Below, piece after piece: positions 36,434 to 63,374 of a stretch of 64,000 nt of DNA. The stretch comes from Janthinobacterium sp. (GTDB lineage: Bacteria > Pseudomonadota > Gammaproteobacteria > Burkholderiales > Burkholderiaceae_D), in NCBI GenBank assembly GCA_003133225.1, contig PKWL01000015.1:1-64000 (forward strand). Reading direction: 5' to 3'. The stretch's first letter is position 1. Each line of letters opens with the position of its first letter. Under the pieces are notes generated by a model. It saw nothing but the letters and a program-made list of their open reading frames with translations. It was not told the origin of the DNA and did no database searches. Position numbers and translations under genes: made by a program.

Positions 36434-37969
36434 TCAGGCGCCGCTGTCTGGCATTGGCGTTTTTCGCGGCCGACGGCTCCGTGCGGCAGGTTTGCGCACT
36501 GCCTTAGCCACGCCTTCTGCCACCTCTTCTGGCGCGCCTTGAGCTGGTGCGCCCGTCGACGCTGCTGGCGTCAACCCATGGCTCAAATTGGCCATCGCTT
36601 CGGCCGCGCTCTTTTGTGCGGCCTGGCCAGCGCCACGCCCTTTGCGCCGCATTTCTTGCTTGTCATCGACTTTGACGGGCGCTGCCGGCTCAGCGACCAT
36701 CGCCAACACCATTGGCGTGGCCGGCGGCGCCTCGGGTACGACTTCGGCGACCTCCTCCACCACGCTGCGGTAAGGGGAAGCACGCGGTTTCTCGTCGCGG
36801 CCGAACGCCGGCTTACGCCCACCGCGTCCCTTGTGACGGGTGGCCGGAACGCCAAGCTCCACAGATGCATCCGGTGCGGCCACGACGTCAAGCACGACCG
36901 GCATGGACGGCGCTACTTGCGGCTCGGGGCCGGCCTCGTCGCCCGCGGCTGAGCTGCTGCTGGCATAGACGGGCGTGCCCGGTTTTTCGTCACGCCCGAA
37001 CGCCGGCTTGCTGCGCCCGCCACGGCCCTTGCGGCGCGATTCTTGCCGCTCGCCCGCCGGCGCCGGCGCCTCGAGCGCTGGCGCGGCGTTGATTACCGCG
37101 GGCGCCAGCGCGCCCGCCTCGTGCCCGGTCTCCCTGCCTGCCGCGGCCGCGTGGCTGCGGTACACATAGGCGCCCGATTTCTCGTCACGGCCAAATTCGA
37201 GCAGTCCGCGCGTCTGCGCTTCTTCGAGCAAATTGCCGAAGGTCCGAAAACCGTAATAGGACTCACTGAAATCAGGCTTGCGGCGCTTGATCGCTTCCTT
37301 TAGCATGGAAGCCCATATCTTGCCGCTGTCGCCTCGTTCAGACACCAACGCATCGAAAGTCTCGACCGCCATTTCGATCGCCTCGCTCTTGCGCCCTTCC
37401 AGGTCTTCCTTGCGCCGGGTATCTTCCTCGGGCGAGCGTTTGATGGCCGGCTGGGCACCGCGCGGGTCGCGCTTGGCCGCCGCTCGCCGGCTCTCACGCA
37501 CCAGATCGTCGTAAAAAATAAATTCGTCACAGTTGGCGACAAGCAAGTCGGACGTCGACTGCTTGACGCCAACTCCAATTACTTGTTTGGCGTTTTCACG
37601 CAGCTTGGACACCAATGGCGAAAAATCGGAGTCGCCACTGATGATGACAAACGTATTGACGTGTGATTTGGTATAACAAAGATCCAGTGCGTCCACGACC
37701 AATCGAATGTCGGCTGAGTTCTTGCCCGACTGGCGCACATGGGGAATCTCAATCAACTCAAAATTGGCCTCGTGCATGGTCGCCTTGAATCCCTTATACC
37801 GGTCCCAGTCGCAATAGGCTTTCTTGACGACGATGCTACCTTTCAGAAGAAGCCGCTCGAGTACGGGCTTGATATCGAATTTTTCGTAGTTTGCGTCGCG
37901 CACGCCGAGCGCGACGTTTTCAAAGTCGCAAAACAGCGCCATGCTGACGTTTTCGTTGGATGCAGCCAT
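36434..37969 (-). CDS. NYN-domain protein with LOTUS-like domain
   Basis: This 511-residue protein begins with a PIN-like NYN nuclease domain (about 1-165): ALFCDFENVA, SADIRLVVDALDL and IISGDSDFSPLV give the acidic metal-site residues, suggesting RNA cleavage. A helical LOTUS/OST-HTH-like module follows (about 200-270, SMLKEAIKRRKPDFSESYYGF). The remainder is a low-complexity tail with three repeats of a GRG(G/A)-KPAFGRDEK unit, basic and Ala/Pro-rich, like RNA-binding tails. The ATG at 37969 was chosen at the start of the NYN domain; the open frame continues to 38293. NYN-LOTUS proteins act in RNA metabolism; the substrate here is unknown. Confidence 0.87.
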   Translation of the reverse strand: MAASNENVSMALFCDFENVALGVRDANYEKFDIKPVLERLLLKGSIVVKKAYCDWDRYKGFKATMHEANFELIEIPHVRQSGKNSADIRLVVDALDLCYTKSHVNTFVIISGDSDFSPLVSKLRENAKQVIGVGVKQSTSDLLVANCDEFIFYDDLVRESRRAAAKRDPRGAQPAIKRSPEEDTRRKEDLEGRKSEAIEMAVETFDALVSERGDSGKIWASMLKEAIKRRKPDFSESYYGFRTFGNLLEEAQTRGLLEFGRDEKSGAYVYRSHAAAAGRETGHEAGALAPAVINAAPALEAPAPAGERQESRRKGRGGRSKPAFGRDEKPGTPVYASSSSAAGDEAGPEPQVAPSMPVVLDVVAAPDASVELGVPATRHKGRGGRKPAFGRDEKPRASPYRSVVEEVAEVVPEAPPATPMVLAMVAEPAAPVKVDDKQEMRRKGRGAGQAAQKSAAEAMANLSHGLTPAASTGAPAQGAPEEVAEGVAKAVRKPAARSRRPRKTPMPDSGA

Positions 37970-38443
37970 ATCGTTGATCGTACTCCATGATGAGTTGGGC
38001 TTGGAAGCCACACGGAAGCACAATACACCAATCGCTCGATTAAACCCACAACATTGGCCCACGTCTCCACCCGAATGTTCCAGACGCTTCCAACTGCAAA
38101 AGCCAGGCACACCTGTGGCACACAAAAAGCGGCGCGCCGCGCTTGGAAAATTAGCGCGCCGGTGTGGATCCGCAGGCCCAGACGCCGCCTGGTTTGCAAG
38201 CGCGCTCCATTTCATTGCCGCGGCTGATAAATTGAAGCGCACACAGGCGCACTGCAACCGGAAATACAAGCCGTCCGGCGTGTAAAATGCCAATCTTCCG
38301 ATTGGAAAAATCCATCTCTATCGATCAGTGCGGGCGCACAAAATCCAGGTCTTCCTCGACTGGGACACTTAAATCAGGGGGCTTTAGGCGCAGCCCCCCG
38401 GCGCGCGGCCACGACCGTCCGCCGCAATTTTGCTAGGATGGCA
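37970..38443. other. Intergenic, no separate gene seen
   Basis: The frame of the NYN gene stays open upstream to 38293, but the sequence is low-complexity and lacks a start site. The rest probably holds divergent promoters for the NYN and reductase genes. Confidence 0.4.
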
Positions 38444-39498
38444 ATGACAACTCTATTTGATCCGATCACCATTGGCGATCTGACGCTGAGAAACCGCATT
38501 ATCATGGCGCCGCTCACGCGCGCTCGAGCGAGCGGCGGCGCGCGCGTGCCGAACGCGCTCATGGCGCACTATTATGCGCAGCGCGCATCAGCCGGCCTGA
38601 TCCTGAGTGAAGCGACCTCGGTCACCCCTCAAGGCGTCGGTTATGCCGATACGCCGGGCATCTGGTCCGATGCCCAGGTTGAAGGTTGGACCCACGTCAC
38701 CCAGGCCGTGCACGATGCCGCCGGGCGCATCTTCTTGCAACTGTGGCATGTCGGCCGCGTGTCCGACCCGATCTTCTTGGATGGTGCAGCGCCGGTAGCG
38801 CCCAGCGCGATCCGTGCGCGCGGCTTCGTTAGCCTGCTGCGCCCGAAGCGGGAATACGTGACCCCGCGCGCGCTGGAAACGAGCGAAATGGCCGGTATCG
38901 TCGAGGCTTACCGCAAAGGCGCGCACAACGCGCAACGGGCGGGCTTCGATGGCGTCGAAATCCATGGTGGGACGGCTACCTGCTCGACCAATTTCTGCAA
39001 GATGGCAGCAACCGTCGCACCGATGCCTATGGCGGACCAATCGAAAACCGGGCCCGCCTGATGCTCGAAGTGACTGACGCCTGTATCGGCGTCTGGGGCG
39101 CCTCGCGCGTGGGCATGCACTTGGCACCACGCGGCGATGCACACGATATGGGCGACTCCAATCCAAAAGCCACCTTCGGCTACGTCGCGCGCGAACTCGG
39201 CAAACGCGGCATCGCCTTCATCTGCGCGCGCGAGGCGGTCGGCGCCGACCGCCTCGGCCCTCTCATGAAAAAAGAATTTGGCGGGGTCTATATCGCTAAC
39301 GAACAGATGGACAAAGTCACTGCCGAGCGACTGCTGGCTGCGGGAGAGGCGGACGCAGTGGCGTTTGGCAAATTGTTCATCGCCAATCCCGACCTGCCGC
39401 GCCGCCTGCAAACGGATGCGCCGCTCAATGTAGTAAGACCGGAAATGTTCTACAATGCGAGCGCCACAGGTTACACCGACTACCCGGCATTGGCCTAA
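38444..39498 (+). pseudogene. Old Yellow Enzyme (NemA-like), frameshifted
   Basis: The region encodes an FMN-dependent alkene reductase of the N-ethylmaleimide reductase type, about 350 residues when intact. ATG 38444 has tagga upstream. The first part shows RNRIIMAPLTRARA, FLQLWHVGRVSDP and GFDGVEIHG. There the frame breaks: the next expected residues (ANGYLLDQFLQDGSNRRTD) appear only in the +1 frame, starting near 38968, and continue through YGGPIENRARLMLEV to the normal C-terminus ending at 39498. A single-base deletion in the codon after GVEIHG explains this. Either the gene is inactive or the base was lost in sequencing; the rest is intact, which argues for a recent event. Confidence 0.85.
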
Positions 39499-39607: not shown

Positions 39608-40993
39608 TCAAAACGTCATAGGCAAGCGTACCGTCAACGTGACCCCCGGCGTATCCGCCGTCAAGCCCGCGCCAACCGACACATTGAGGGTGGTTTTTTC
39701 GCTGATGCGGTAGGAATATCCCACCAGCAAGGTACCCAGCTGTAGGCGCACCGAGCCCTGCGCCGGAACATCGTTTTGCAGCGTACGCCCAATCGAATGA
39801 TGATCGTAACCAATGCTGAGCGCGGACTTATCGTTAAGGGCTAGTCCCATGCCAAAATTAAAGCCGATGACCCCGCCTGGTGCAATCCTTCCCAGCGGCG
39901 CCTCGACGCCGTTGAGGACAAGGGTCGAGACATTATTTCGCGCGATGCTGTACAAATAACTGACACTGCCAAAGAACACGGCCGGATCGGACGGAAACAA
40001 CCACGTCAAGCTCGGTTGCACTCCATAAAACCCCGAGCCCGTCGGCAATGTCAGTGGCAAGCCGGTGCCGGTGGCATTGTTGGCGACGCAACTTACCGTG
40101 CAGTCGGTGACGACGCTAAACGGATCGCGTCCGGTGCGCGTTTTGACGCGCAGACCGGCCACGTAATACGATTTGTCCATCCCGCCTTCGTTGAGCTGGT
40201 AGCGGGCAGCCAGTTCGACGTCGCCAATCCCTTGCCCGCTCGTTTGGAAGACGGTATCGACGGCGCTGCCGGTCGATTGCGGGCGACTGAGGGTGGAATT
40301 GGTGCTATAGGCATAAGGCACCTTTGCTTCCACCTCGAAGCGGCGCCCCAAGCCATAGCGCAAGGTCAGCGCCGCTGTCGTCGTGCTAACCTTGACTTGC
40401 TGGATATCGATCAGGCCGATCAGCAGGGCGGGAATAATGGTATAGCCAATCAGCGCGACCTGGTCGCTCGACGAATAGCCGTACTGCAGCGACGGCTCGA
40501 GCACGAATTTTCCTTTCGGCGTAAGCACCCCGGGCTGTTCAAAAAGAGGGGCGACTTCGGGCGGCCGGCCGTCGTTAGTGGGCGCCTGCCCGACCGCGAC
40601 CGGCGCTTGCGTTGGCGCCGGCGCCTGTGCCACCGTTGCCGGCGCCGGTGGCGGCGATGCGTCCCCGTTCGCCGCGTCCGGCGCCGGCGGTGGCGACGCG
40701 TCCCCGTTTACTGCTTCCGTTGCGTCCATGCTCTGGGGACCGGTACCGCGATGGCGCGCGAGTACGTCGCCGCTGACGGTGTCGCGCAATTCGATCATGC
40801 TGGCTTTTTGCTCAGTGACCGATTGCCTGAGTGACTCGAGCAATTTTTTTTGCTCTGTCAGCTGTTGCTGCATCAATTCGAGCTGGCCCACCAACTCTTC
40901 GCGCGTGCCGGAAAATTCTTGGGCGCGCACGGCGCCACTCATCAAGAGTGCGGAAACTCCGAGTGTGCCAATACGCAGCAATTGAATTTGCAT
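39608..40993 (-). CDS. FapF-like outer-membrane protein
   Basis: This 461-residue protein has a signal peptide ending at VRAQ (residue about 25), then a coiled coil (about 28-75, rich in EEL-QLELMQQQL-LLESL heptads), a Pro/Ala-rich linker with two near-identical GDASPPPAPDAAN units, and a C-terminal beta-barrel (about 155-461) with alternating aromatic strands and a terminal Phe, typical of outer-membrane insertion. The order coiled coil, linker, barrel is that of FapF, the amyloid export pore of Pseudomonas. ATG 40993 has ggggag upstream. It is the last gene of the amyloid-like operon, 66 bp after the gene at 41060. The barrel is assigned from pattern only. Confidence 0.75.
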   Translation of the reverse strand: MQIQLLRIGTLGVSALLMSGAVRAQEFSGTREELVGQLELMQQQLTEQKKLLESLRQSVTEQKASMIELRDTVSGDVLARHRGTGPQSMDATEAVNGDASPPPAPDAANGDASPPPAPATVAQAPAPTQAPVAVGQAPTNDGRPPEVAPLFEQPGVLTPKGKFVLEPSLQYGYSSSDQVALIGYTIIPALLIGLIDIQQVKVSTTTAALTLRYGLGRRFEVEAKVPYAYSTNSTLSRPQSTGSAVDTVFQTSGQGIGDVELAARYQLNEGGMDKSYYVAGLRVKTRTGRDPFSVVTDCTVSCVANNATGTGLPLTLPTGSGFYGVQPSLTWLFPSDPAVFFGSVSYLYSIARNNVSTLVLNGVEAPLGRIAPGGVIGFNFGMGLALNDKSALSIGYDHHSIGRTLQNDVPAQGSVRLQLGTLLVGYSYRISEKTTLNVSVGAGLTADTPGVTLTVRLPMTF

Positions 40994-41059
40994 TTTTTCT
41001 CCCCGAGGTTTGACAGAAGCAGGTTCCAGCGATCATGAAGGCGTTACACCTCGCCCTCT

Positions 41060-42004
41060 TTATTTCAAGACGGCAGCTTTGGACAAGGCATTCGACAAGG
41101 TACCCATGAAATTCATGCCTCTTAAAATTCCCAGGCTGTTGACGGTAGAGTTGACGACGGTCGTGCTACTAAGCACCTGATTGTTCAAGGTGTTCTGAAT
41201 GACGGTTCCGGCTACCGATTGCGGCAACGCTCCCACCAGGACGGTATTACCGGCACCGTTTTGGATCACATTGAGTGCTGTTGCCGCATAAGAATTCGAT
41301 TGGGCCGGATTGTTATTGAGTGAAGCGAGGTCGCCAACGTTCAAGGTGGTGCTAGAGACCACGTTACCGTTAATCGACACCATCCGTTCGATTCCGATCG
41401 ACATCACAAGACCGCTGCCCAAATCAAAACCGGCGCGCATGTCGTCGAGCGCGTGCTCGCTCACTGGCTGCCACGCGCTGGCGGAGGAACGGGCGCCAGC
41501 AGCAGTTCGTGCTAACGCCGTTCTTGAGGCGAGGGGCGGGTTCGAGACAGCGGCGACAAACTTGGGCAAGCTTAATTCCGGCACGGCTAACTTCGCTAAG
41601 GGCAACGCCGGCAAGGGCAACTCCGACATGACCAATTCTTGTTCCGCTAACTCGGGCACTGGTAACTCCGGCAATGGCAACGTCGGCAGTGTTAATTCCC
41701 TCACGGCTAACACCACGGATGACACCGGCAGGGGTAACTCTGCCTGCGGCATGCCTAATGCTCCCGTCGCCAATCCCGATATGCCCTGCGGCGGCGCGGG
41801 GAACGCCGTCAACAACCACTCCGGCATACTCGACTCTAACCCGGCAGAGCCGGACACACTGAAGGTAGGCAAGGGCAACTCCGATGCTGCGGCCTCCGGC
41901 GCCGCGTTGCTAGCTTGTGCATCCACCTCCTGCGTCAGTCCGGTTGCCGGCACACTCATGCCGGCCGCCAACAAGAGACAGGCCAGCTTTTCAGTCGATC
42001 GCAT
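41060..42004 (-). CDS. FapE-like exported protein with Leu-Pro repeats
   Basis: This 314-residue protein starts at ATG 42004 with aggaggag upstream and has a signal peptide to about residue 25. Residues about 100-155 form a run of five-residue units on the theme (L/V)PELP, PLPALPLAK and AVPELSLPK. The C-terminal 140 residues contain LDDMRAGFDLGSGL, SINGNVVSSTTLNV and two IQN segments (VIQNGAGNTVLVG and VIQNTLNNQVLSS), similar to the Asn/Gln-rich motifs in the small protein at 42702 and to amyloid-like sequence. It probably leaves the cell or acts in the periplasm with the fibre. The FapE name is by gene order and character. Confidence 0.6.
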   Translation of the reverse strand: MRSTEKLACLLLAAGMSVPATGLTQEVDAQASNAAPEAAASELPLPTFSVSGSAGLESSMPEWLLTAFPAPPQGISGLATGALGMPQAELPLPVSSVVLAVRELTLPTLPLPELPVPELAEQELVMSELPLPALPLAKLAVPELSLPKFVAAVSNPPLASRTALARTAAGARSSASAWQPVSEHALDDMRAGFDLGSGLVMSIGIERMVSINGNVVSSTTLNVGDLASLNNNPAQSNSYAATALNVIQNGAGNTVLVGALPQSVAGTVIQNTLNNQVLSSTTVVNSTVNSLGILRGMNFMGTLSNALSKAAVLK

Positions 42005-42015
42005 TTCTCCTCCTG

Positions 42016-42699
42016 TCAAAACTGCCCTGGCCCGTTTTTAGGCATCGTCACGGCATTTAGCCCGTTGCGGTCAATACCCGCCTGCAGCGGCGCGCGCGGA
42101 GCGACCCGCCAATCGGCAGCAGCATTAAACTTGATGAGGCCCGGCTTGTCATGAATGACAAACAACAGTTTACTGGGCCACATCGCATCAAAACTGCTGC
42201 GCGGAATGGCCCGCGTGCCACCCGCGGGATCGCCAATTAGGACCCGCCCCTCCTCGATTCCTTTGATCACGACAAAATGGTTGTATCCCCTATCGACCAA
42301 CAACACGATGGCCGGATAACCGGTCTCGACTAGCTTTTCCAAAGGTAACTGAAATCCATCGGCATCGAACCCGTGCAGCGCAAGGAATCGTTTGATATCG
42401 AGCAAAGAAAAGCCTTCCTTCCGAATTTTGTTCTGATCACCTTGCGCGTACATTTGCTCAAAAGCGAGCTGTTCCGTAATGGGATAGTTGTAATGGTGCG
42501 TCAGCAAGGTTGCCACCGCTGCTGAACCGCAGCTGAAGTCGTATTGTTGGCGCAAAGTCGTCTTGAAGCGCGCTTCCTTCAAACTGGTTATATGCAATCG
42601 GAAATTGGCTCCATCAACCGAAGCCAAATCCATTGCGGCCGCGCTCACGCCTGCGGCCCCGATTGCCATTCCAAGCAAGAACTTCGTTAGCGAGCGCAT
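42016..42699 (-). CDS. C39-family peptidase (FapD-like)
   Basis: This 227-residue protein has a signal peptide and a papain-like C39 peptidase domain. The active site is complete by eye: Gln51/52 (oxyanion), Cys57 in QQYDFSCGSAAVATLL, His141 in YNHFVVIKG and Asp157 in IGDPAGG. C39 peptidases cleave double-Gly leader-type sites; in Fap loci FapD is needed for fibre processing and export. It lies 2 bases after the FapA-like gene, with no ribosome binding site of its own visible, so it is probably translated by coupling. The ~80-residue C-terminal end goes beyond the catalytic domain. Confidence 0.85.
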   Translation of the reverse strand: MRSLTKFLLGMAIGAAGVSAAAMDLASVDGANFRLHITSLKEARFKTTLRQQYDFSCGSAAVATLLTHHYNYPITEQLAFEQMYAQGDQNKIRKEGFSLLDIKRFLALHGFDADGFQLPLEKLVETGYPAIVLLVDRGYNHFVVIKGIEEGRVLIGDPAGGTRAIPRSSFDAMWPSKLLFVIHDKPGLIKFNAAADWRVAPRAPLQAGIDRNGLNAVTMPKNGPGQF

Positions 42700-42701
42700 G
42701 G

Positions 42702-43172
42702 CTATTTCATTTGCAAATTGATAATGGTTGAATTCTGAATCAACACATTTGCCCCGGAATTTTGCACCACGATCGGCACACCGGAAAAGTTGGCAAAAGC
42801 GCCGCCGTCGATGACATTTGATCCGGTGTTGACATTAATGGCGGTATTGCTACTGACGACGCCACTCAAGGTGGCGTTATTGTTGACCGTTTCGGTGCCG
42901 CCACGCAGTTGGTCGAGCTGATCAAGCGGGGCCGGTTGCGCCAATTCGAATTTCGTCGTCGACGGCGCTGCGCTCGAGGTCCCCATGGCGAACGCGGCTT
43001 GCGGCGCCGCTCGGGCCAAGCCTTGTTGTGGCGCGGCATCCCTTTTCAATGCGGGTGCGCGCTGCTCCGGTTCGGATGCGCCAGCTTGCTGCTCCGGTGG
43101 TGCCGCCCAGGCCGACAATGGCGTGCCGGATAGTACCAGCAGGCTCATGTAAAAATAGTGTTTGAATTGCAT
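42702..43172 (-). CDS. FapA-like small exported protein
   Basis: This 156-residue protein starts at ATG 43172 with aagggga upstream and carries a signal peptide cleaved near AWA (residue about 23). An Ala/Gln/Pro-rich region follows, then a C-terminal 65 residues dense in Asn, Val and Ser: ETVNNNATLSGVVSSN, INVNTGSNVIDG, VIVQNSG-type repeats and LIQNSTIINLQ. This beta-prone Asn-rich sequence resembles FapA and amyloid nucleators. In known Fap loci FapA can act as periplasmic chaperone. The gene follows the fibre gene after a stem-loop and is tightly linked to the peptidase gene. Confidence 0.62.
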   Translation of the reverse strand: MQFKHYFYMSLLVLSGTPLSAWAAPPEQQAGASEPEQRAPALKRDAAPQQGLARAAPQAAFAMGTSSAAPSTTKFELAQPAPLDQLDQLRGGTETVNNNATLSGVVSSNTAINVNTGSNVIDGGAFANFSGVPIVVQNSGANVLIQNSTIINLQMK

Positions 43173-43279
43173 GACTTCCCCTTATCTCCGCATGCACGCG
43201 AGAACAGCCGCCGGCCAGTGCAGTCCAAAATGCCGGACCGTAGCACTGGTCAGCCGCCTATTTTCTGACTCACGAAAAT

Positions 43280-43312
43280 GCCGTGGCGCGCAACAAATTC
43301 TCGCGCCACGGC
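43280..43312 (-). terminator. Stem-loop directly after the fibre gene
   Basis: Perfect 11-bp arms (GCCGTGGCGCG and CGCGCCACGGC) with an 11-base loop start 8 bp after the fibre stop codon, followed on the minus strand by TTTT. It may partly terminate transcription or protect the fibre mRNA end, so that fibre subunit is made in excess over the export machinery. Confidence 0.65.
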
Positions 43313-43320
43313 GGCGTGCT

Positions 43321-45066
43321 TTAATGCCCGAGGGTCAGATTGGACTGCACGTTCACGCTTTGCTGAATGAAAGAAGCCATGCCGCTGTTTTGGCTCAGCA
43401 CCATGATGCCTGCGGCCGACTGCGCAGCACCCGTCATGGTGTTGGACATGTCGAAACCGCCGGTCGTCACGCTGATGCTGCCACCAGCACCACCAGTACC
43501 GCCCATGCCCGTCCCGCCGGTACCCGCACCGGCCGTATTGCTGCCGCCAGCGCCACCAGCACCGCCCGTGTTAGTCCCACCGGCGCCACCGGCGCCGCCG
43601 GCACCGGCCGTTGCACTGCCGTTGGTCGCATTCCCGGTGGTGGCGCTGCCGCCCGTCGCATTGCCACCGGCAGCACCACTACCACCGGTATTTGACGCCG
43701 AGCCACTACTGCCGCCAGCACCGCCGGCCGCACCAGCGGCGCCAGCACCACCCGACGTCGTTGCAGAGGCGCCTGAACCGCCTGCGCCAGTGGCGCCGCC
43801 GGTTGCCGAACCGCCGGCACCGCCGCTACTTGTCAAGGCAGCGCCGTTGCCGCCAGCACCACTAGTTGCGCTGCCTCCGGCGGCGCCCGAGCCGGCCGTA
43901 TTGGTAGCTGCCCCGCCGCCGGCACCGGCGCCGGTCGTCGAACCGTTGCCGCCATTGCCGCCATTGCCGGCCGTTGCCGCGCCGCCCGTGGAGGTGAGGG
44001 CGCCCGTCGTCCCGGCGCCGCCCGTGCCGGCGCCACCCGTACCGGAGCCGGCGGAGCCGGTGGTGTTAGTGCCGCCGGTCGCGGGCGGGATCACACTGAT
44101 AGCGCCGCTGGTGGCAGTAGACGAGCCGCCGGTGCTGCCGCCGCCCTTCGCGCCACTGAGCGCCGCCGCGATGCCGCCGGCGGCAAGGCCGCCTTTGGCG
44201 CCGCTGCCGCCATTCGCGCCCTTACCGCCATTGCCGCCCGTGCCAGCAAATGCGCCGGCCGCCTTGCCGCCCGCGCCGCCGGCGCCGGCCTTGGCCAGAC
44301 CGCTGGCGCCCCCATTGCCCCCTTTCGCACTCGCGTTGCCGCCATCGCCGGCGATCGTGGTGCCGCCTTTGCCACCGTTGCCGCCGCTGCCGCCAATAGC
44401 AAAGCCGCCGGAGCCGCCTTTGCCGCCGGCGCCGCCATTGCCGCCCTTGCCGCCGGCCCCGCTCGTCGCTTTGCTGGCATTGCCGCCGTTGCCGCCGTCA
44501 CCGGCGATGGTGGCGCCCACTTTTGCGCTGCCGCTGGTGGCATTGCCCACTTTGGCGAAACCGCCGGCCGCCCCTTTGGCGCCGTTGGCGCCAATTGCCT
44601 TGCCGCCAGAGGCGCCATTGGCGCCGGAAGCGTTACCCCCTTTGCCATCACCGCCGGTACCGCCCTTCGCAGTGCCGCCGTTCGCGTTGCCATCATTGCT
44701 TGCAGTATTGCCAATTCCAGAAATTGTGTTGCCAGTCACAGAGCCTTCCAAGCGGCTGCTCGCTGTGGCGGTGGTTTTGTTAAACGAGCTAGCGACCGAG
44801 GCCGTTGAGCCGTTGTCGGCTGCTGCGGACCCGGCTGCACTGGCATCGGCATTTCCGCTGCTATTGTTTTGACCAGAATTATTGTCTTGCGACGCCGTAG
44901 AATCCTGGTTGGCAGAAGGACCGGCACCAGACTGGGTGGAATTCGTGGTGGCCGTTTGGGTCAGGCCGCCACTCGGACTTTTAGCAGAATTGGTTGCATT
45001 GTCTTGCGCCTGAGCGTTCAAGCCAAAGGCAAGGGCAATGGCTGCCGCTAGCAAAGTTTTGTTCAT
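43321..45066 (-). CDS. Gly/Ala-rich amyloid-like fibre protein
   Basis: This 581-residue exported protein has a signal peptide cleaved after NAQAQ (residue about 20). Residues 25-110 are rich in Asn, Ser, Thr and Gln (amyloid-like); about 120-540 is a run of GGNGG, GGAGG and GGSGG-type repeats like PE_PGRS proteins or glycine-rich fibres; the last 40 residues are ordered and beta-prone, with GIMVLSQNSGMASF and QQSVNVQSNLTLG. There is no cysteine, unlike the FapC of Pseudomonas. ATG 45066 has agggaa upstream, and a sigma-54 promoter lies 75 bp upstream. It is the first and presumably most expressed gene of the operon. I infer it is the structural subunit. Confidence 0.72.
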   Translation of the reverse strand: MNKTLLAAAIALAFGLNAQAQDNATNSAKSPSGGLTQTATTNSTQSGAGPSANQDSTASQDNNSGQNNSSGNADASAAGSAAADNGSTASVASSFNKTTATASSRLEGSVTGNTISGIGNTASNDGNANGGTAKGGTGGDGKGGNASGANGASGGKAIGANGAKGAAGGFAKVGNATSGSAKVGATIAGDGGNGGNASKATSGAGGKGGNGGAGGKGGSGGFAIGGSGGNGGKGGTTIAGDGGNASAKGGNGGASGLAKAGAGGAGGKAAGAFAGTGGNGGKGANGGSGAKGGLAAGGIAAALSGAKGGGSTGGSSTATSGAISVIPPATGGTNTTGSAGSGTGGAGTGGAGTTGALTSTGGAATAGNGGNGGNGSTTGAGAGGGAATNTAGSGAAGGSATSGAGGNGAALTSSGGAGGSATGGATGAGGSGASATTSGGAGAAGAAGGAGGSSGSASNTGGSGAAGGNATGGSATTGNATNGSATAGAGGAGGAGGTNTGGAGGAGGSNTAGAGTGGTGMGGTGGAGGSISVTTGGFDMSNTMTGAAQSAAGIMVLSQNSGMASFIQQSVNVQSNLTLGH

Positions 45067-45140
45067 AGCAGTTCCCTAAGTAAAAAGTTAATGTGGATTC
45101 AATCTTGCTGTGCGATTGTCGCTAAGCATTAGCCATCTAA

Positions 45141-45155
45141 GCAAGGTCAATGCCA
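45141..45155 (-). promoter_or_regulatory. Sigma-54 promoter of the fibre operon
   Basis: On the minus strand the sequence TGGCATTGACCTTGC, followed by T, has GG and GC elements exactly 10 bp apart, matching the -24/-12 consensus TGGCAC-N5-TTGCW in all but two positions. Transcription should begin near 45129, giving a 60-base leader before the ATG at 45066. Confidence 0.85.
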
Positions 45156-45432: not shown

Positions 45433-46764
45433 TCAGGCACGAAGGCCGTGTTTTGCCAACAGGCGGTAGAGTGTCATGCGGGAGATACCCAGATCGCGGG
45501 CGGCGCGACTGATGTTTTTCCCGGATTTTTGCACGCTGGCTAGAACAGCGTCACGCTCGGCTCGTGTCCGCGCCCCATCCAGCGCGGCGCCATCAATTTG
45601 CCTAAATTGCAATTCCAAACCCAGGTCCTCGGGCGCGATCAGGGGCCCTTCGGCCATCACCATGGCGCGCCGTATGCGGTTGATCAATTCGCGCACGTTA
45701 CCGGGCCAGTCGTGCTGCACGATGGAGTGAAAGGCTTTGGCGCTAAAGCCCTTCACGCGCGGCGCCCGTTCACTTGAAAATTGCGAGAAGAAATGGTTTG
45801 CCAGTAAAACCAGATCGTCCTTGCGCTCGCGCAATGGCGGCACGTCAAGCGCGAGCACGTTCAGCCGGTAATACAAATCCTCGCGAAAACTGCCATTGCT
45901 TACGGCTTCTTGCAAATTAACGTGGGAGGCGGCAATGACCCGGACGTCGAGCTCAATGCTGTGGGTCGAACCGACCCGGTAAATGGTCTTTTCCTGCAAA
46001 AAGCGTAGAAAATTCGACTGCAATTCCATCGGCAGGTCGCCGATTTCATCGAGAAAAATAGTGCCGCCCGCCGCCGACTCGATCAGGCCCAGCTTTTCCT
46101 TGGCGGCACCGGTGAAGGCGCCCCGTTCGTGTCCGAACAATTCCGATTGGATCAAGTTGGAGGGAATGGCGCCGCAATTGATGGGCACAAAAGGCCTGGC
46201 GGCGCGTACGGAATGGGAATGAATGGCATGCGCCACCAGTTCCTTGCCGGTGCCGCTCTCGCCCCAGATCAACACCGGGGCGGACGCGCTGGCCACCTTG
46301 ACGATTTGCTGGCGCAGCCTGCTGATGGCGGCGCTTTCACCTTTGAGCGCCATGTCGCGCGGCTGCGCCGATCGCGGTCCCGGAGTCTGGCGCAGGGCCG
46401 CGTAGCCATGGGCATGGCCGAGCGTATGGTTGAGGCGAAAAATGTCAATCGGCAGCGTGTGGAAATCGCAAAAATGGTCGAGCACCAACTGCCGGCACAG
46501 CGTCGATTTGAGTGCCTGCGCAGGGAACACGCCGATCCATTGCATGGCCCAGTGTTCACGCAGAAAGCGGTCCACCTCGTCGACTGCGTCATGTTGCAAG
46601 GTGACATGCAACAACCCCACCAGAAATCCGCGCGCACGCAAGACACGGTTTGCTTCCTTCAGGCTTGCCACGATGCAAACCTCCCATTCCTGCAATGCGC
46701 CAGCGTGCTCGTTGAATAGCGACGCATCACCCAACGCCACACAAAGCAGCTGTTTCTTAACCAT
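45433..46764 (-). CDS. VpsR-like sigma-54-dependent activator
   Basis: This 443-residue activator has an N-terminal receiver-like domain of about 120 residues that lacks a clear phospho-acceptor Asp (VpsR type), a AAA+ domain with Walker A GESGTGKE (168-175), the sigma-54 contact loop GAFTGA (215-220) and Walker B FLDEIGD (237-243), and a C-terminal Fis-type HTH (SRAARDLGISRMTLYRLL). In Vibrio VpsR binds c-di-GMP and drives biofilm genes. ATG 46764 has gggggtgg upstream. It lies upstream of and in the same direction as the amyloid-like operon, whose first gene has a sigma-54 promoter, so it very likely controls that operon. Confidence 0.9.
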   Translation of the reverse strand: MVKKQLLCVALGDASLFNEHAGALQEWEVCIVASLKEANRVLRARGFLVGLLHVTLQHDAVDEVDRFLREHWAMQWIGVFPAQALKSTLCRQLVLDHFCDFHTLPIDIFRLNHTLGHAHGYAALRQTPGPRSAQPRDMALKGESAAISRLRQQIVKVASASAPVLIWGESGTGKELVAHAIHSHSVRAARPFVPINCGAIPSNLIQSELFGHERGAFTGAAKEKLGLIESAAGGTIFLDEIGDLPMELQSNFLRFLQEKTIYRVGSTHSIELDVRVIAASHVNLQEAVSNGSFREDLYYRLNVLALDVPPLRERKDDLVLLANHFFSQFSSERAPRVKGFSAKAFHSIVQHDWPGNVRELINRIRRAMVMAEGPLIAPEDLGLELQFRQIDGAALDGARTRAERDAVLASVQKSGKNISRAARDLGISRMTLYRLLAKHGLRA

Positions 46765-47033
46765 AAGCCACCCCCGATAGTTCGTGCATATTTGCACTAA
46801 ATTCAATACTGGTCAAAAGGCAACATCAAGGGCAAAAAAAAGAGCCCGTTCCAGAGCCTTCAGGCCATTTCGCAAAATGCACACTCAGCTGCCATGATGC
46901 CTCGACCGGACCCAATTCGCAAATGCGTTCCGCCCGGCATCAAGCAAGGCTCGGGCCTTCCTGATTTGGAGACGGGCGCGGCCCCTTCCCTCGCGTCTAA
47001 GCGCTCGTCAACTGGGCCCGGGCATACGGCTTT
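46765..47033. other. Intergenic, no gene recognised
   Basis: This gap precedes relic copy B. It holds no supported gene. Confidence 0.4.
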
Positions 47034-58799: not shown

Positions 58800-60356
58800 A
58801 TGAGCAGTTTCCACAAGCGGACAAGAACGGCGGTATGGCGCATGGCATGGGCGCTGGCCGGCGTGTTAGGGGCGCCCCTGGCGCACGGCCAAGCAGCATT
58901 GGGAACGGGCGCGTCTGGCGCCGACCAAGCTCCTGGGGCCACCTCGAAACCGGTGAAACAAAGCGAAGCCGGCAAACGCCCGGCCGCGCTCATACAGGGA
59001 CCGCCCGTTGTGACGGGCAATGTCGAACTGGCGCCGCAAATCAACCTCTTTGAAGGGAAGTCGACCCTGATGCGCCTGCCCTACCCGGCAACCCGCCTTG
59101 CCGTCGGTGACGCCCGCATCGCCGACGTTATCTTGCTTCATCCGAGCGAGATGTATCTGCTCGGAAAATCCGTCGGATCCACCAACCTCATCTTGTGGAA
59201 CAAATTCAACGAGGCCACCATCATCGACATCACGGTCGGTCTCGATACCACGGCATTGCACGCTCAATTAGAACTGCTTCTGGCCGGCGAAAAAAATATC
59301 AAGATCACGCCAGCCGCCGATACCCTGATTATTTCCGGAACCGTATCCGATGTCGTCAAGGCCGACCAAGTCCTGGCCCTGGCGAACGCCTATATGCAAC
59401 GCAGCACACGCACTGCCCAGGCTGGCGGCCCCCCCCCAGTGGGTGCGCCCGGTCAGCCATCGTCGAATGCGTCGCGCGTCGTCAACATGCTCGCCATCGA
59501 CGCGCCGCAGCAAGTGATGCTGGAAGTAAAGGTCGCGGAAGTGTCGAAGACGCTGGTCGACCAGTTGGGCGCTAGCGTTGGGGCAAGCAAGACGAATGGC
59601 AGTTGGACCTACACGCTACTGTCGAATCTGCTCAGTGGAAGTCCCAGCCTGGCTAGCGCCCTCAACAACAAGACCGGCAGCTTTGCTACGCTCGATGCCC
59701 AAAAAAGCGACGGGCTGGTGAAAGTACTGGCCGAGCCAACGATCATGGCCATCAGCGGCCAGGAAGCGAGCTTTCTGGCGGGCGGAAAAATCTTCATACC
59801 GGTGAGTCAAAACAACAATGGCGGAGCCCAAACCATCACCCTAGAAGAAAAGGAGTTCGGCATCGCCGTCAAGTTCACGCCCACCGTCCTCGCGGGCGGG
59901 CGCATCAACCTCAAAGTGGCGCCCGAGGTGTCGGACCTGAACAAAGAGGGCATCGGCATCACGGTAACCGGTGCGACTACGACAGCAATCCTGCCTTCTT
60001 TCACCACCCGCCGCGCCACCACCACCGTCCAACTCTATGATGGGCAAAGCTTTGCCATCGGCGGTCTGATCAAAAATAACGTGACGACCAACATCAAAGC
60101 GCTTCCGCTGCTCGGTGAAATCCCCGTGCTTGGCGCCCTCTTCCGCAGCAGCAATTTCCAGACTGACCGATCGGAACTGGTATTCATCATTACGCCCCAT
60201 TTGGTCAAGCCACTAGCGCCCGACTACAAGCTGCCGACCGACCCTTACATCGAACCTAGCCGAGCGGAATTTTTTCTCGGAGGAAAAATGGAAGGCTCGC
60301 CCGCACCTCAAGCAAAAAGCCAGGCCGGGCGGCCGACCGGCTTTGAACTCAACTAG
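58800..60356 (+). CDS. cpaC: Tad secretin CpaC/RcpA
   Basis: This 518-residue outer-membrane channel lets the pilus exit. A signal peptide ends at AHGQ (residue about 30). Then come a BON-like domain and a secretin N domain (about 75-215), and the secretin domain (about 290-470) with VLAEPTIMAISGQEASFLAGG, the conserved FTTRRATTTVQLYDGQSFAI and the final LPLLGEIPVLGALFRS block. The C-terminal tail is Pro/Lys-rich. ATG 58800 has aagggaga upstream. Confidence 0.94.
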   Translation: MSSFHKRTRTAVWRMAWALAGVLGAPLAHGQAALGTGASGADQAPGATSKPVKQSEAGKRPAALIQGPPVVTGNVELAPQINLFEGKSTLMRLPYPATRLAVGDARIADVILLHPSEMYLLGKSVGSTNLILWNKFNEATIIDITVGLDTTALHAQLELLLAGEKNIKITPAADTLIISGTVSDVVKADQVLALANAYMQRSTRTAQAGGPPPVGAPGQPSSNASRVVNMLAIDAPQQVMLEVKVAEVSKTLVDQLGASVGASKTNGSWTYTLLSNLLSGSPSLASALNNKTGSFATLDAQKSDGLVKVLAEPTIMAISGQEASFLAGGKIFIPVSQNNNGGAQTITLEEKEFGIAVKFTPTVLAGGRINLKVAPEVSDLNKEGIGITVTGATTTAILPSFTTRRATTTVQLYDGQSFAIGGLIKNNVTTNIKALPLLGEIPVLGALFRSSNFQTDRSELVFIITPHLVKPLAPDYKLPTDPYIEPSRAEFFLGGKMEGSPAPQAKSQAGRPTGFELN

Positions 60357-60365
60357 GGAGTCATC

Positions 60366-60653
60366 ATGAACCATAAGCGCTTTCGTAGCAGAAGCGTGCC
60401 CTGCGCGGCGTTGTTGCTGATATTGGCAGGGTGCGTATCAACAACGCCGAATCTGGATCGCGATTTTGGCGCGGCCGTCAGACTGTTATACGCGCAGCAA
60501 ACCTTGAACCCGGACGCGTCGCGCAATACGGATTCCGTAGCAGGCATCGATGGCAAGGCGGCAAAAGGCGCCTATGACGAATATTTGAAATCCTACGCGA
60601 CGCCTGAGCCGCAGCAAAATGTGTTCACCATCGGCGTTGGTGGCGCTCATTAA
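60366..60653 (+). CDS. Tad-locus lipoprotein
   Basis: This 95-residue protein has a signal sequence with lipobox LAGC (Cys near residue 23), so it should be an outer-membrane lipoprotein. The mature part contains DFGAAVRLLYAQQTLNPDAS, VAGIDGKAAKGAYDEY and ends FTIGVGGAH, a pattern typical of small lipoproteins in Burkholderiales tad loci. It begins 9 bp after the secretin gene with ggag upstream and is probably a pilotin- or CpaD-like helper of the secretin. It is too short to be a full CpaD. Confidence 0.75.
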   Translation: MNHKRFRSRSVPCAALLLILAGCVSTTPNLDRDFGAAVRLLYAQQTLNPDASRNTDSVAGIDGKAAKGAYDEYLKSYATPEPQQNVFTIGVGGAH

Positions 60654-60802
60654 ATCTGGGTTTAACTGGTCGGCACAAAGGCTGTGATGATGAAAACGTC
60701 ATTACTTAAAGCAAAACGGCAATGCGGTGTGCGTCACCGTAAGGCATCGGGACGGCCGCCAACAGGGCTGCCACTCGCGCCCACTGGATCACAGGAGCTG
60801 AC

Positions 60803-61969
60803 GTGAAAATCTCCGTCGTATCACACGATGAAAAGTCTCTTTGGGAGATCGCCAGATTGCTGCGCGAGCGCAACCCGTCGGATGCGGTGAACGTCGTTTT
60901 CGGCGCATTGGAAAAGTTGGCCGGGCTCGCCGACCTCGCGTCGGCCAACGTGCTGGTCCTCGACCAGCCCTCGGTCGAAGGCGGCGATCTGGAGCGGCTC
61001 GAACGCTTAAGCCAGCTTTATCCGCGCATGGCCTTCATCCTGCTTTGTCCTCAGCAGCACTCGCCCGCGTTCCTCATCCAAGCCATGCGCGCCGGCGTGC
61101 GCGAGGTGTTGGCCTCTCCCGTTAGCTCCGCCACCCTGTATCCGGCCATCCAGCGCATTGAGGAAAAGCTCGACCACCAGTACCAGGCCAACGGCAAGGT
61201 GCTGGCGTTCGTTTCCTGCAAAGGCGGCAGCGGCGCCACCTTCCTTGCCACCAACCTCGGCTACGCCCTAGCCATGCAGGGCAAAGCCCGGGTGGCGTTA
61301 ATTGACCTTAATTTGCAGTTCGGCGATGCATCGCTGTTCGTCTCCGATCAAAAGCCGCTGGCAACCGTGGCCGACGTGGCCCGACAAATTCACAGGCTGG
61401 ACTCTTCGTTTCTCGCCTCTAGCATGCTCAACGTGACACCCAACTATGGTGTGCTGGCAGCCCCGGAAGATCCGACCCACGCCAACGATGTCAAGCCAGA
61501 ACATATTGATGTGATCCTGAGGCTGGCCCGACGCCAATACGACTTCGTCTTGCTTGACGTCGGTCGCAGTCTGGACGCCGTCAGCATCCGCGCGCTAGAT
61601 CAGGCCGACATGATCTTCCCCATCCTGCAAACAACCCTGCCTTATATCCGCGACGGCAAGCGTCTTCTGGGCATTTTCCGGTCCTTGGATTACCGCAACG
61701 ACAAGATTCACCTGATCGTAAACCGCCATGAAAAAGGCAACGATATCAAGCTGCACGATCTGGAGGCGGCCTATGGCGTAAAGATTTTCCGGACCATCCC
61801 CAACCACTATGGCGCGGCCGCCGCCTCGGTAAACCAGGGAGTGCCCATATTGAAGCTGGCCCGCAGCAGCCCGATTTCCAAATCCTTGCAAGAGTTTGCC
61901 AAGTCGCTGGCAGGAGCCGCTAACCCAGCCTCGCACAGTTGGCTATCGCGGGTTTTTCAACGCGCTTGA
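60803..61969 (+). CDS. tadZ: Tad pilus localisation ATPase TadZ/CpaE
   Basis: This 388-residue MinD-like protein places the Tad machine at the pole. An N-terminal receiver-like domain (about 1-125) without obvious phosphorylation residues is followed by a ParA/MinD ATPase domain with a deviant Walker A CKGGSGATFLATNLG, LIDLNLQFGDASLF and FVLLDVGRSLD. The GTG at 60803 has caggag upstream. It continues the order secretin-lipoprotein-TadZ-TadA of Burkholderiales loci. Confidence 0.92.
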   Translation: MKISVVSHDEKSLWEIARLLRERNPSDAVNVVFGALEKLAGLADLASANVLVLDQPSVEGGDLERLERLSQLYPRMAFILLCPQQHSPAFLIQAMRAGVREVLASPVSSATLYPAIQRIEEKLDHQYQANGKVLAFVSCKGGSGATFLATNLGYALAMQGKARVALIDLNLQFGDASLFVSDQKPLATVADVARQIHRLDSSFLASSMLNVTPNYGVLAAPEDPTHANDVKPEHIDVILRLARRQYDFVLLDVGRSLDAVSIRALDQADMIFPILQTTLPYIRDGKRLLGIFRSLDYRNDKIHLIVNRHEKGNDIKLHDLEAAYGVKIFRTIPNHYGAAAASVNQGVPILKLARSSPISKSLQEFAKSLAGAANPASHSWLSRVFQRA

Positions 61970-62000
61970 CGCCCCTTAAGCTGCCACAGGAGTAAATGCC

Positions 62001-63374
62001 ATGCCCCTAGAGAACATCGAGAACATCTCCATCCGCGACCGATTAGGTAGCGCCAATGACAAGGTGGCGTACGCCGGGCAGCGTCCGGGGGGCATTGATA
62101 ACCGCGCTTTCCAGGATCTAAAGCACCGTATTCATCAAGCCTTGCTTGACCGGGCCGACCTTGAAAGCATGCAGCGCCTATCCCATGAGCAGATTCGCGA
62201 CGAGCTCAGAACTCTGGTCGAACGCTTGCTCGAAGAGCAAGCCGTCGTCATCAACGACATCGAGCGCAAAAACCTGACCCGCGACATCCAAAACGAGATG
62301 CTCGGTTTCGGGCCGCTGGAACCTTTGCTGGCCGATCCGAGCATCTCTGACATTCTCGTCAACACCCACAAACACGTCTACGTGGAACGGCATGGCAAGC
62401 TTGAACTCACTGATGTCACCTTCAGCGACGATGCGCATCTCATGAAGATAATCGATAAGATCGTGTCGCGCGTCGGTCGCCGCATCGACGAGTCAAGTCC
62501 GATGGTGGACGCGCGCCTGCCTGACGGTTCACGCGTCAACGCGATCATTCCTCCGCTCGCCATCGATGGTCCCATCATGTCGATCCGCCGTTTTGCCGCC
62601 GAGCCGTTGCGCCTGGCCGATCTGGTGACGCACAGGAGCTTGACCGTCGAGATGGCGGAAATCTTGCAGGGATTGGGCAAGGCCAAGGTCAACATCTTAA
62701 TTTCGGGCGGCACGGGCAGCGGTAAGACCACCATGCTCAATGTGATCTCCGGCTTCATCGGCGCCTCCGAGCGCATCGTGACGATCGAGGATGCGGCCGA
62801 ACTGCAATTGCAGCAGCCTCATGTCGTGCGCCTTGAAACACGCCCGCCCAATATCGAGGACAAGGGCGAAGTGACCCAGCGGGCACTGGTGCGCAACGCG
62901 CTGCGCATGCGCCCGGACCGCATCATCTTGGGCGAAGTGCGCGGCGGCGAGGCCTTAGACATGCTGCAGGCCATGAACACCGGTCATGAGGGATCGATGG
63001 CAACCATTCATGCCAACACGCCGCGCGACGCGCTCACCCGACTCGAGAACATGATCAGCATGGCGGCCGCGAGCCTGCCAACCAAAGCCATGCGCCAACA
63101 GATCAGTTCTGCCATCAGCGTCGTCGTGCAGGTGGCGCGCTTGACAGACGGCAAACGCAAGGTCTTGTCAATCCAGGAGATCACAGGCATGGAAGGCGAA
63201 ATGATCATGATGCAGGAGATCTTTATCTTCAAACAGACGGGACTGGGAGAGCACGGCGCCATCATTGGGCATTTTTGTTCCACCGGGATACGCCCTAGAT
63301 TCCTGGAAAGGCTGCGCACCTTCGGCATATGCGTATCCGATAGCTTGTTTGACCCGACCCGACAGTACCACTAG
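62001..63374 (+). CDS. tadA: Tad pilus ATPase TadA/CpaF
   Basis: This 457-residue hexameric secretion ATPase powers extension and retraction of Flp pili. It has a helical N-terminal domain, the [19 protein letters not shown] motif, Walker [11 protein letters not shown] (about 230-240), the Asp box, Walker [21 protein letters not shown] with the catalytic Glu, and the His box [18 protein letters not shown] 62001 has caggagt upstream. All ATPase motifs are intact. It is followed by the tadB gene 3 bp later. Confidence 0.95.

Follow-up and report, generated by a model that had tools for sequence, protein, structure and literature searches.

A putative second Fap-type operon lineage with a glycine-rich product in Janthinobacterium and related bacteria

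Introduction

The Fap system of Pseudomonas (fapABCDEF) exports functional amyloid, and an operon that resembles it was analyzed here in 64,000 nucleotides of Janthinobacterium sp. DNA (contig PKWL01000015.1, positions 1-64,000; assembly GCA_003133225.1), a stretch referred to in full as the window. What we say about published work follows the accessible sections of each cited source. FapD is a periplasmic C39 peptidase. Its target was undetermined in publications from 2017 (PMC5557850) and 2018 (PMC6173800), according to which the Fap proteins do not have canonical C39 sequences. Secretion of FapC requires the catalytic Cys of FapD, and complete N-terminal processing has been shown, among the Fap proteins, by FapE only (PMC5557850). 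In a 2025 review, FapD is thought to process FapE and FapF (PMC12822426). FapA is often absent from Fap operons (PMC3792158). The fap operon of P. fluorescens has a -24/-12 promoter and requires RpoN and the adjoining regulator BrfA (PMC9207406).

A survey from 2013 considered FapD and FapF to be likely members of two larger families (PMC3792158), and according to a 2018 review their homologues are co-located in five further phyla (PMC6173800). Such fapD-fapF pairs outside the classical system have therefore already been reported; as described in the sections available, they come without a glycine-rich fiber, a small protein or an RGG motif.

A preliminary description of the window had proposed a Fap-like export operon with an amyloid fiber and counterparts of FapA, FapD, FapE and FapF. 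Sequence comparison supported the FapD, FapE and FapF counterparts and added a fap-type regulator, but not the amyloid core or the FapA role. The operon seems to represent a second lineage of the Fap type, which is widespread and whose product is glycine rich.

Results

The ORF list holds five tightly packed open reading frames (ORFs) on the minus strand at 39608-45066, which encode, in the order of transcription, a glycine-rich fiber protein, a small exported protein, a C39 peptidase, a FapE-like protein and a FapF-like channel. All coordinates of the operon and its regulator refer to this strand. The ends of these ORFs, and their being five consecutive genes, agree with the preliminary description. 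From fiber to channel gene, the intergenic gaps are 148, 2, -4 (an overlap) and 66 bases. A sixth gene on the same strand, 366 bases upstream of the fiber gene, is that of a VpsR-domain sigma-54 activator.

Related loci were collected with an alignment of the small protein. The best 80 of 392 matches represent 78 distinct loci (the named loci), in which the small protein is present by construction; some of their genomes are shared with the first set of loci (e.g., L071 and L032). The genera include Massilia, Janthinobacterium, Duganella, Rugamonas, Variovorax, Ralstonia, Cupriavidus, Polaromonas, Undibacterium and others. The peptidase was found in all 78 loci, the FapE-like protein in 76, a homologue of the fiber C terminus in 75 (hidden Markov model [HMM] score >40), the barrel in 72 and the sigma-54 regulator in 46. 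In Burkholderiales loci holding the first four genes, the order fiber, small protein, peptidase, FapE-like protein was kept on one strand without exception (73/73). The channel gene was next on the same strand in 50 of these 73 loci; 18 loci have it at a different place or in the opposite orientation, and 5 lack it. Since the four-gene order is kept in every such locus, we conclude that the grouping of these genes goes beyond chance.

The channel protein (39608-40993; 461 residues) consists of a signal-peptide-like start, a coiled coil, a Pro/Ala linker and a barrel; signal peptides of the operon proteins were judged by eye throughout. The solved FapF barrel (PDB 5o67) aligned with residues 140-460 (E = 9.5e-30), with the LPTG segment retained, and the NCBIfam FapF model matched with E = 3.4e-38 and 131.5 bits. 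The FilC model of Acinetobacter also matched the barrel protein (3.7e-10). The predicted periplasmic coiled coil spans residues 26-76 (40766-40918); in its heptad region, aliphatic residues occupy 10 of 14 a/d positions, a value equalled by 1 of 2000 shuffles. The coiled-coil plus beta-barrel architecture read earlier from the sequence was thus borne out. By homology the protein is a relative of FapF, and it probably functions as a channel.

The peptidase (42016-42699; 227 residues; its export also judged by eye) matched NCBIfam C39_FapD with E = 2.1e-37 and 128.6 bits and Pfam C39 with E = 3.1e-20. Its residues Gln51, Cys57, His141 and Asp157 are invariant in all 27 rows of alignment A3, confirming a C39 peptidase with complete catalytic residues, homologous to FapD.

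The HMM searches against the Fap families suggested in the preliminary description had a mixed outcome: C39_FapD and FapF matched below their curated cut-offs, and FapB, FapC and FapE did not match the window proteins. To place the operon among its relatives, a barrel match was recorded in 31 of 120 genomes searched (the window's own included), among them weak matches of other types. Of 398 sampled genomes from the same phylum (Pseudomonadota), 42 had a FapF-family match, which exceeded the curated cut-off in 7; these seven and one near the cut-off (L152/L198) are called Pseudomonas-type. By channel score, 20 of the 398 genomes were of classical type (at least 343 bits) and 15, including the window's own, fell in the window range (126-175 bits).

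Gene content divides along similar lines. The loci L055, L056 and L191-L206 encode FapB/FapC repeat proteins together with FapE. The FapF scores of L207-L210 and L212-L218 are lower; these loci encode a small protein and a FapE-like protein but lack FapB/FapC repeat proteins, with the one qualification that the minimal repeat pattern has two matches in the fiber ORF of L210. In L220, only the peptidase and barrel are present. L211 and L219 were missed by the small-protein and fiber models and showed the same plan on reading: small proteins with LEQLRGR, FapE-like proteins with LGVMRGG or MAELRGG and, in L211, a glycine-rich protein. Of the distant loci, most belong to other orders of the window's class and one, L217, to a different class of the phylum; in L217, the small-protein gene is preceded by a short gene whose product is not glycine rich.

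The peptidase tree was in line with this division. It is an unrooted maximum likelihood tree of 57 rows with some long branches, and its rows and groups were picked from gene content. Eighteen classical rows form one side of a branch (99/93), and 31 window-type rows form one side of another (79/80; 77% of bootstrap trees); the window peptidase lies outside the classical FapD clade. The peptidases of L211 and L219, tagged "other" before their loci were read, fall among or beside the window-type rows. Furthermore, both types occur in one genome: G149 has one locus of each (L201 and L218), and in three of six Ralstonia genomes one channel scores as classical type (365-380 bits) and another as window type (152-166 bits). 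Because gene content and peptidase tree both split and the two types co-occur, the window operon appears to belong to a separate lineage and not to be a decayed Fap system.

Two products share a motif that may be the cut site of the peptidase. The small protein (42702-43172; 156 residues) contains LDQLRGG at residues 86-92 (42897-42917), and a conserved block starts right past it. This block is the predicted mature protein (residues 93-156, 64 residues; 42705-42896), with 65% mean column identity over 63 rows; L86, R90 and G91 are invariant in 21 of 21 rows. From alignment A1, the L031 row, which has a masked stretch, was excluded. The FapE-like protein (41060-42019; 319 residues from a TTG start, with an alternative ATG five codons further, at 42004) has a long Leu-Pro-rich propeptide followed by LDDMRAG (41429-41449), where 19 other aligned homologues have RGG. 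The predicted mature domain of 122 residues (41063-41428) was beta-rich according to AlphaFold2 (predicted local distance difference test score [pLDDT], 71; predicted template modeling score, 0.57). In both proteins, the L-x3-R-G-G motif thus stands at the start of the conserved domain.

The motif is nearly constant in the relatives. In the first set, it was present in 20 of 21 small proteins (L051 has RGR) and in 19 of 20 FapE-like proteins, the window protein with RAG being the exception. Among the unique proteins of the named loci, [LM]x3RGG was found in 75 of 77 small proteins (the other two have RGR) and [LM]x3RG[GKR] in 76 of 76 FapE-like proteins. As background, [LM]x3RGG occurs in 121 of the 5438 remaining six-frame ORFs (100 residues or longer) of the same loci; these ORFs were read from stop to stop and are mostly not genes. 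The wider motif form was seen in 1 of 75 fiber ORFs. Small proteins of distant loci have the variants MDSSRGG, LNHSRGR, LADSSGR and LAALRGG.

A related segment is present in classical FapE. HHalign aligned the untrimmed FapE-like family with the FapE families over 32 columns on the motif segment (probability, 94%; E = 9.7e-8), and none of 98 completed column shuffles equalled this. The pattern [LM]x3[RT]G[RKG][YF] was found in 32 of 32 unique FapE homologues, 17 of them from the 398-genome sample, 13 from another search, plus L055 and L056 (the count leaves out the partial L153 and identical copies). Of the 16 FapE proteins in the overlapping set L191-L206, 15 have the motif, the exception being L205 with LSDMHGKF. 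The curated FapE model matched the Pseudomonas-type controls and none of the window proteins. The proposed FapE counterpart therefore stands for the homologous segment, not for the family model. We propose L-x3-R-G-G, which matches this segment of classical FapE, as a FapD cut site. The L-x3-R-G segment is not mentioned in the accessible sections of the Fap literature, which was never searched by motif letters.

Similar motifs occur in other classical proteins. The FapA-like proteins of L206 and L203 contain VLSRQRGG and LASIRGRF, suggesting that FapA may also be processed in some species. In the classical FapF of L202 (ORF 7543-8997), the linker that joins coiled coil and barrel contains LVTMRGRY; this candidate FapD site is consistent with the idea that FapF, too, is cleaved in some species.

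The Leu-Pro repeat noted in the preliminary description is present in the FapE-like protein but is a species-specific insert and not a family feature. This Leu-Pro/Glu-Leu-rich stretch of the propeptide (41450-41945) is absent from 19 aligned relatives; ahead of the conserved motif, the window protein has 185 residues vs 36-99 in these relatives.

The fiber or matrix protein (43321-45066; 581 residues) has a signal-peptide-like start and appears to be secreted. Its core, residues 131-520 (43507-44676), consists of PGRS-like GGX triplets with 41% Gly and a period of 3 (z = 4.2), as the reported PGRS-type repeats implied; 5% of its residues are ILVFYWM and 6% Q/N. The composition points to polyglycine-II-like triplets, and an amyloid nature of the core is unsupported. 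The protein contains no Cys, Trp or Tyr. The lack of cysteine, pointed out before, is common in relatives but not universal (43 of 56 fiber ORFs of at least 250 residues, with 12-36% Gly over the whole ORF).

The fiber protein ends with a conserved C-terminal domain (residues 521-581; 43324-43506). HHalign related it to the small protein with a probability of 77%, and none of 100 column shuffles was as good. These two are the beta-prone parts. The fiber proteins of the distant loci L207 and L208 are shorter and Asn-richer, with 16-18% Gly and two Cys, and have the same C-terminal end, so that this end, not the glycine core, defines the family. The small-protein family also aligned in register, although weakly, with the Fap repeat (probability, 23%; 0 of 100 shuffles as good). 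The likeness of its conserved domain to the fiber C terminus and, to a lesser degree, to the FapB/FapC repeat makes the small protein seem a minor subunit rather than the FapA counterpart suggested before; a FapB-like role as minor subunit or nucleator is predicted.

That the single long fiber protein differs from FapB and FapC was upheld. The curated models did not match it, and no window ORF has the three repeats of the pattern X15GX4NX3GX6NX7; the only core-pattern match in the window is in the fiber ORF. Two ORFs in L031-L053 and two in L067-L144 have two such matches, and all four bear the fiber C terminus. The fiber protein gave no Pfam match at E up to 1, hence no PE domain. We read it as a major subunit of another type than FapB/FapC.

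The regulator (45433-46806) is a sigma-54 activator with an N-terminal VpsR domain and HTH_8 (Pfam Sigma54_activat, 8.5e-70; VpsR, 9.4e-14). By homology it is the counterpart of the regulator adjoining classical fap operons: it shares 50-52% identity with the regulators at all six Pseudomonas-type fap loci fetched, and the VpsR domain was found in 7 of 7 scanned regulators beside classical fap, the one of L055 being under the curated cut-off. Between regulator and fiber gene, a -24/-12 (RpoN-type) promoter-like site, TGGCATTGACCTTGCT, lies at 45140-45155, approximately 74-89 bases before the fiber ATG. It is the sole TGGCAYN5TTGCW match in the 64 kb (0.33 expected), and at least one match occurred in 27 of 100 shuffled windows. 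The promoter argument therefore rests on the place and conservation of the site. When up to two mismatches are allowed, 50 of the 56 distinct regions upstream of a closed fiber ORF of at least 250 residues in relatives have such a site, vs 3 of 56 on the reverse complement; 42 of the 50 sites are 70-110 bases before the ATG. An RpoN promoter and a BrfA-type regulator, as in classical fap, are thus present by sequence, and their regulatory role is predicted. No gene lies between the promoter site and the fiber gene; FapA was not searched for elsewhere.

Discussion

These data suggest the following mechanism. The VpsR-domain activator would turn the operon on via the -24/-12 promoter, and signal peptides would bring the proteins to the periplasm. 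There, the FapD-like peptidase is predicted to cut the small and FapE-like proteins directly after L-x3-R-G-G, which would release from each a short, beta-prone domain that contains Asn/Gln. Both domains and the uncut glycine-rich protein would leave through the FapF-like channel. Outside, the small protein and the fiber C terminus, sharing one repeat-like unit, would probably seed the assembly and hold it to the FapE-like protein as an anchor, and the extended glycine-rich part, probably polyglycine-II-like, may build up a surface layer or a biofilm matrix. For the reading as a whole, i.e., a second Fap lineage with cut small and FapE-like proteins and an exported glycine-rich matrix, we estimate a probability of about 0.7. 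We put forward, more tentatively, that an amyloid-export machine was taken over for a non-amyloid polyglycine-II matrix, in which an uncut glycine-rich protein passes a FapF-like channel and is seeded by two beta-prone proteins freed at L-x3-R-G-G, and that L/M-x3-R-G-[KR]-[YF] is the recognition and cut site of FapD in Fap at large.

Several results weigh against this reading. The scores of peptidase and channel are far under the equivalog cut-offs (128.6 of 330 and 131.5 of 700 bits), and the FilB model of Acinetobacter fits the peptidase almost equally well (7.4e-34). In the 18 loci mentioned, the channel gene does not directly follow the other four. The regulator identity is in part that of the AAA domain, which sigma-54 activators share in general. 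The curated FapB, FapC and FapE models match the Pseudomonas-type controls and no window protein, and the fiber C terminus aligned with the Fap repeat no better than shuffles (25 of 100 as good); the match of the small protein to this repeat is weak, at 23%. The AlphaFold2 model of the small protein was unusable (pLDDT, 59). The FapE homology spans 32 columns, and 13 of the 32 FapE homologues are from loci without FapB/FapC inspection. Furthermore, classical FapE has K/R at the second Gly, L205 has His for Arg and the window's own FapE-like protein has RAG instead of RGG, so that a shared site is extrapolated.

The glycine-rich product could also be a surface coat or adhesin instead of a fiber, in which the FapE-like protein would hold PGRS-like polyglycine-II sheets at the outer membrane. 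This differs from the reading above in product shape only; the glycine period of 3 and the polyglycine-II sandwich modelled for the Gly triplets of PGRS domains (PMC9436101) speak for it, but kinship to a fiber-making system argues indirectly against it, and we consider it rather unlikely. Likewise, the disagreement is confined to fiber structure if the fiber itself is a functional amyloid with unusual linkers, Fap in mechanism, whose core is a long linker before a cross-beta C terminus. The linkers of classical FapC vary widely (PMC3792158), the beta-prone parts are the fiber C terminus and the small protein, and the shorter, Asn-richer L207 and L208 proteins have the same end. With one repeat-like unit instead of three, a C terminus no closer to the Fap repeat than shuffles and few hydrophobic or Q/N residues in the core, however, we regard an amyloid fiber as unlikely.

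Still less probable is that the operon serves peptide secretion, the small protein being matured and exported as a bacteriocin-like or autolysis peptide. The Neisseria nap island encodes a C39 peptidase (NapP) and a FapF-like channel (NapF) along with GG-motif peptides (PMC11798529), and the 64 residues past the GG motif would be of bacteriocin size. Such a role fits poorly with the strong conservation of the mature part and with a gene for a large secreted protein directly upstream in 73/73 loci. Nap peptides are cationic and autolytic, and the accessible nap description, on which the comparison relies, mentions no glycine-rich large protein or FapE-like gene. The structure of FapF resembles COG4313 channels (PMC6173800), so barrel and peptidase could belong to hydrophobic-compound uptake with unrelated neighbors. 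Given the conserved cassette order, the coiled coil, the peptidase and the motif-bearing neighbors, we give this explanation hardly any credence.

Under the preferred reading of a second Fap-type lineage, the window operon has in common with Pseudomonas Fap the channel with coiled coil and LPTG, the C39 peptidase, the FapE-like gene between peptidase and channel genes, the VpsR/BrfA-type regulator and the -24/-12 site. Unlike fapABCDEF, it has no three-repeat FapB/FapC-type protein, no FapA was found in it, its one fiber protein is glycine rich, its small protein has its own RGG site and its peptidase is on a separate branch. The likeness to Acinetobacter Fil concerns two genes, the peptidase (FilB model) and, more weakly, the barrel (FilC model). 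Composition and period of the Gly-rich triplets are shared with mycobacterial PE_PGRS proteins, from which the fiber differs by the lack of any Pfam match. PE_PGRS proteins use another export route. In curli, the major and minor subunits share a repeat unit, as the fiber and small protein seem to do here; unlike in curli, Pfam curlin and CsgG matched none of the six proteins scanned.

The conserved double-glycine motif in two neighbors of the peptidase and in the classical FapE segment makes the FapD target testable by changing a few residues. Surveys that demand FapB/FapC repeats, such as the GTDB search for Fap described in PMC12392863, would miss the window lineage. Since 15 of the 398 genomes are in the window range vs 20 of classical type, the reach of Fap-type secretion may be underestimated. 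If the reading is true, an exported matrix protein that is glycine rich and possibly polyglycine-II would represent a new type of biofilm material, made by bacteria that are common in the environment.

Additional observations

Second channel genes were seen in two genomes (L049, in G056, and L241); in the 15 kb of L049, tblastn did not find the other five window proteins. Other cassettes of a C39 peptidase and a FapF-like barrel are present in L063, L058-L061 and L064. The L063 cassette adjoins a 105-residue protein with MDRVAAG, and the neighbors in L058 and L064 are, presumably, a FadL-like gene and a gene for a filamentous-haemagglutinin-like protein. The contig of L129, labelled Akkermansia muciniphila, bears a Burkholderiales-type cassette and is probably misbinned.

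Downstream of the operon, the window encodes an NYN-domain protein (36434-38293, minus strand). On the plus strand, two adjoining ORFs (38438-39061 and 39061-39498) resemble halves of one protein, which we take to be an NADH:flavin oxidoreductase (old yellow enzyme), apparently frame-broken or mis-sequenced. Also on the plus strand, 58800-63374 encodes a secretin with a pilus N-terminal region and a T2SSE ATPase, perhaps of a Tad/Flp-type pilus locus.

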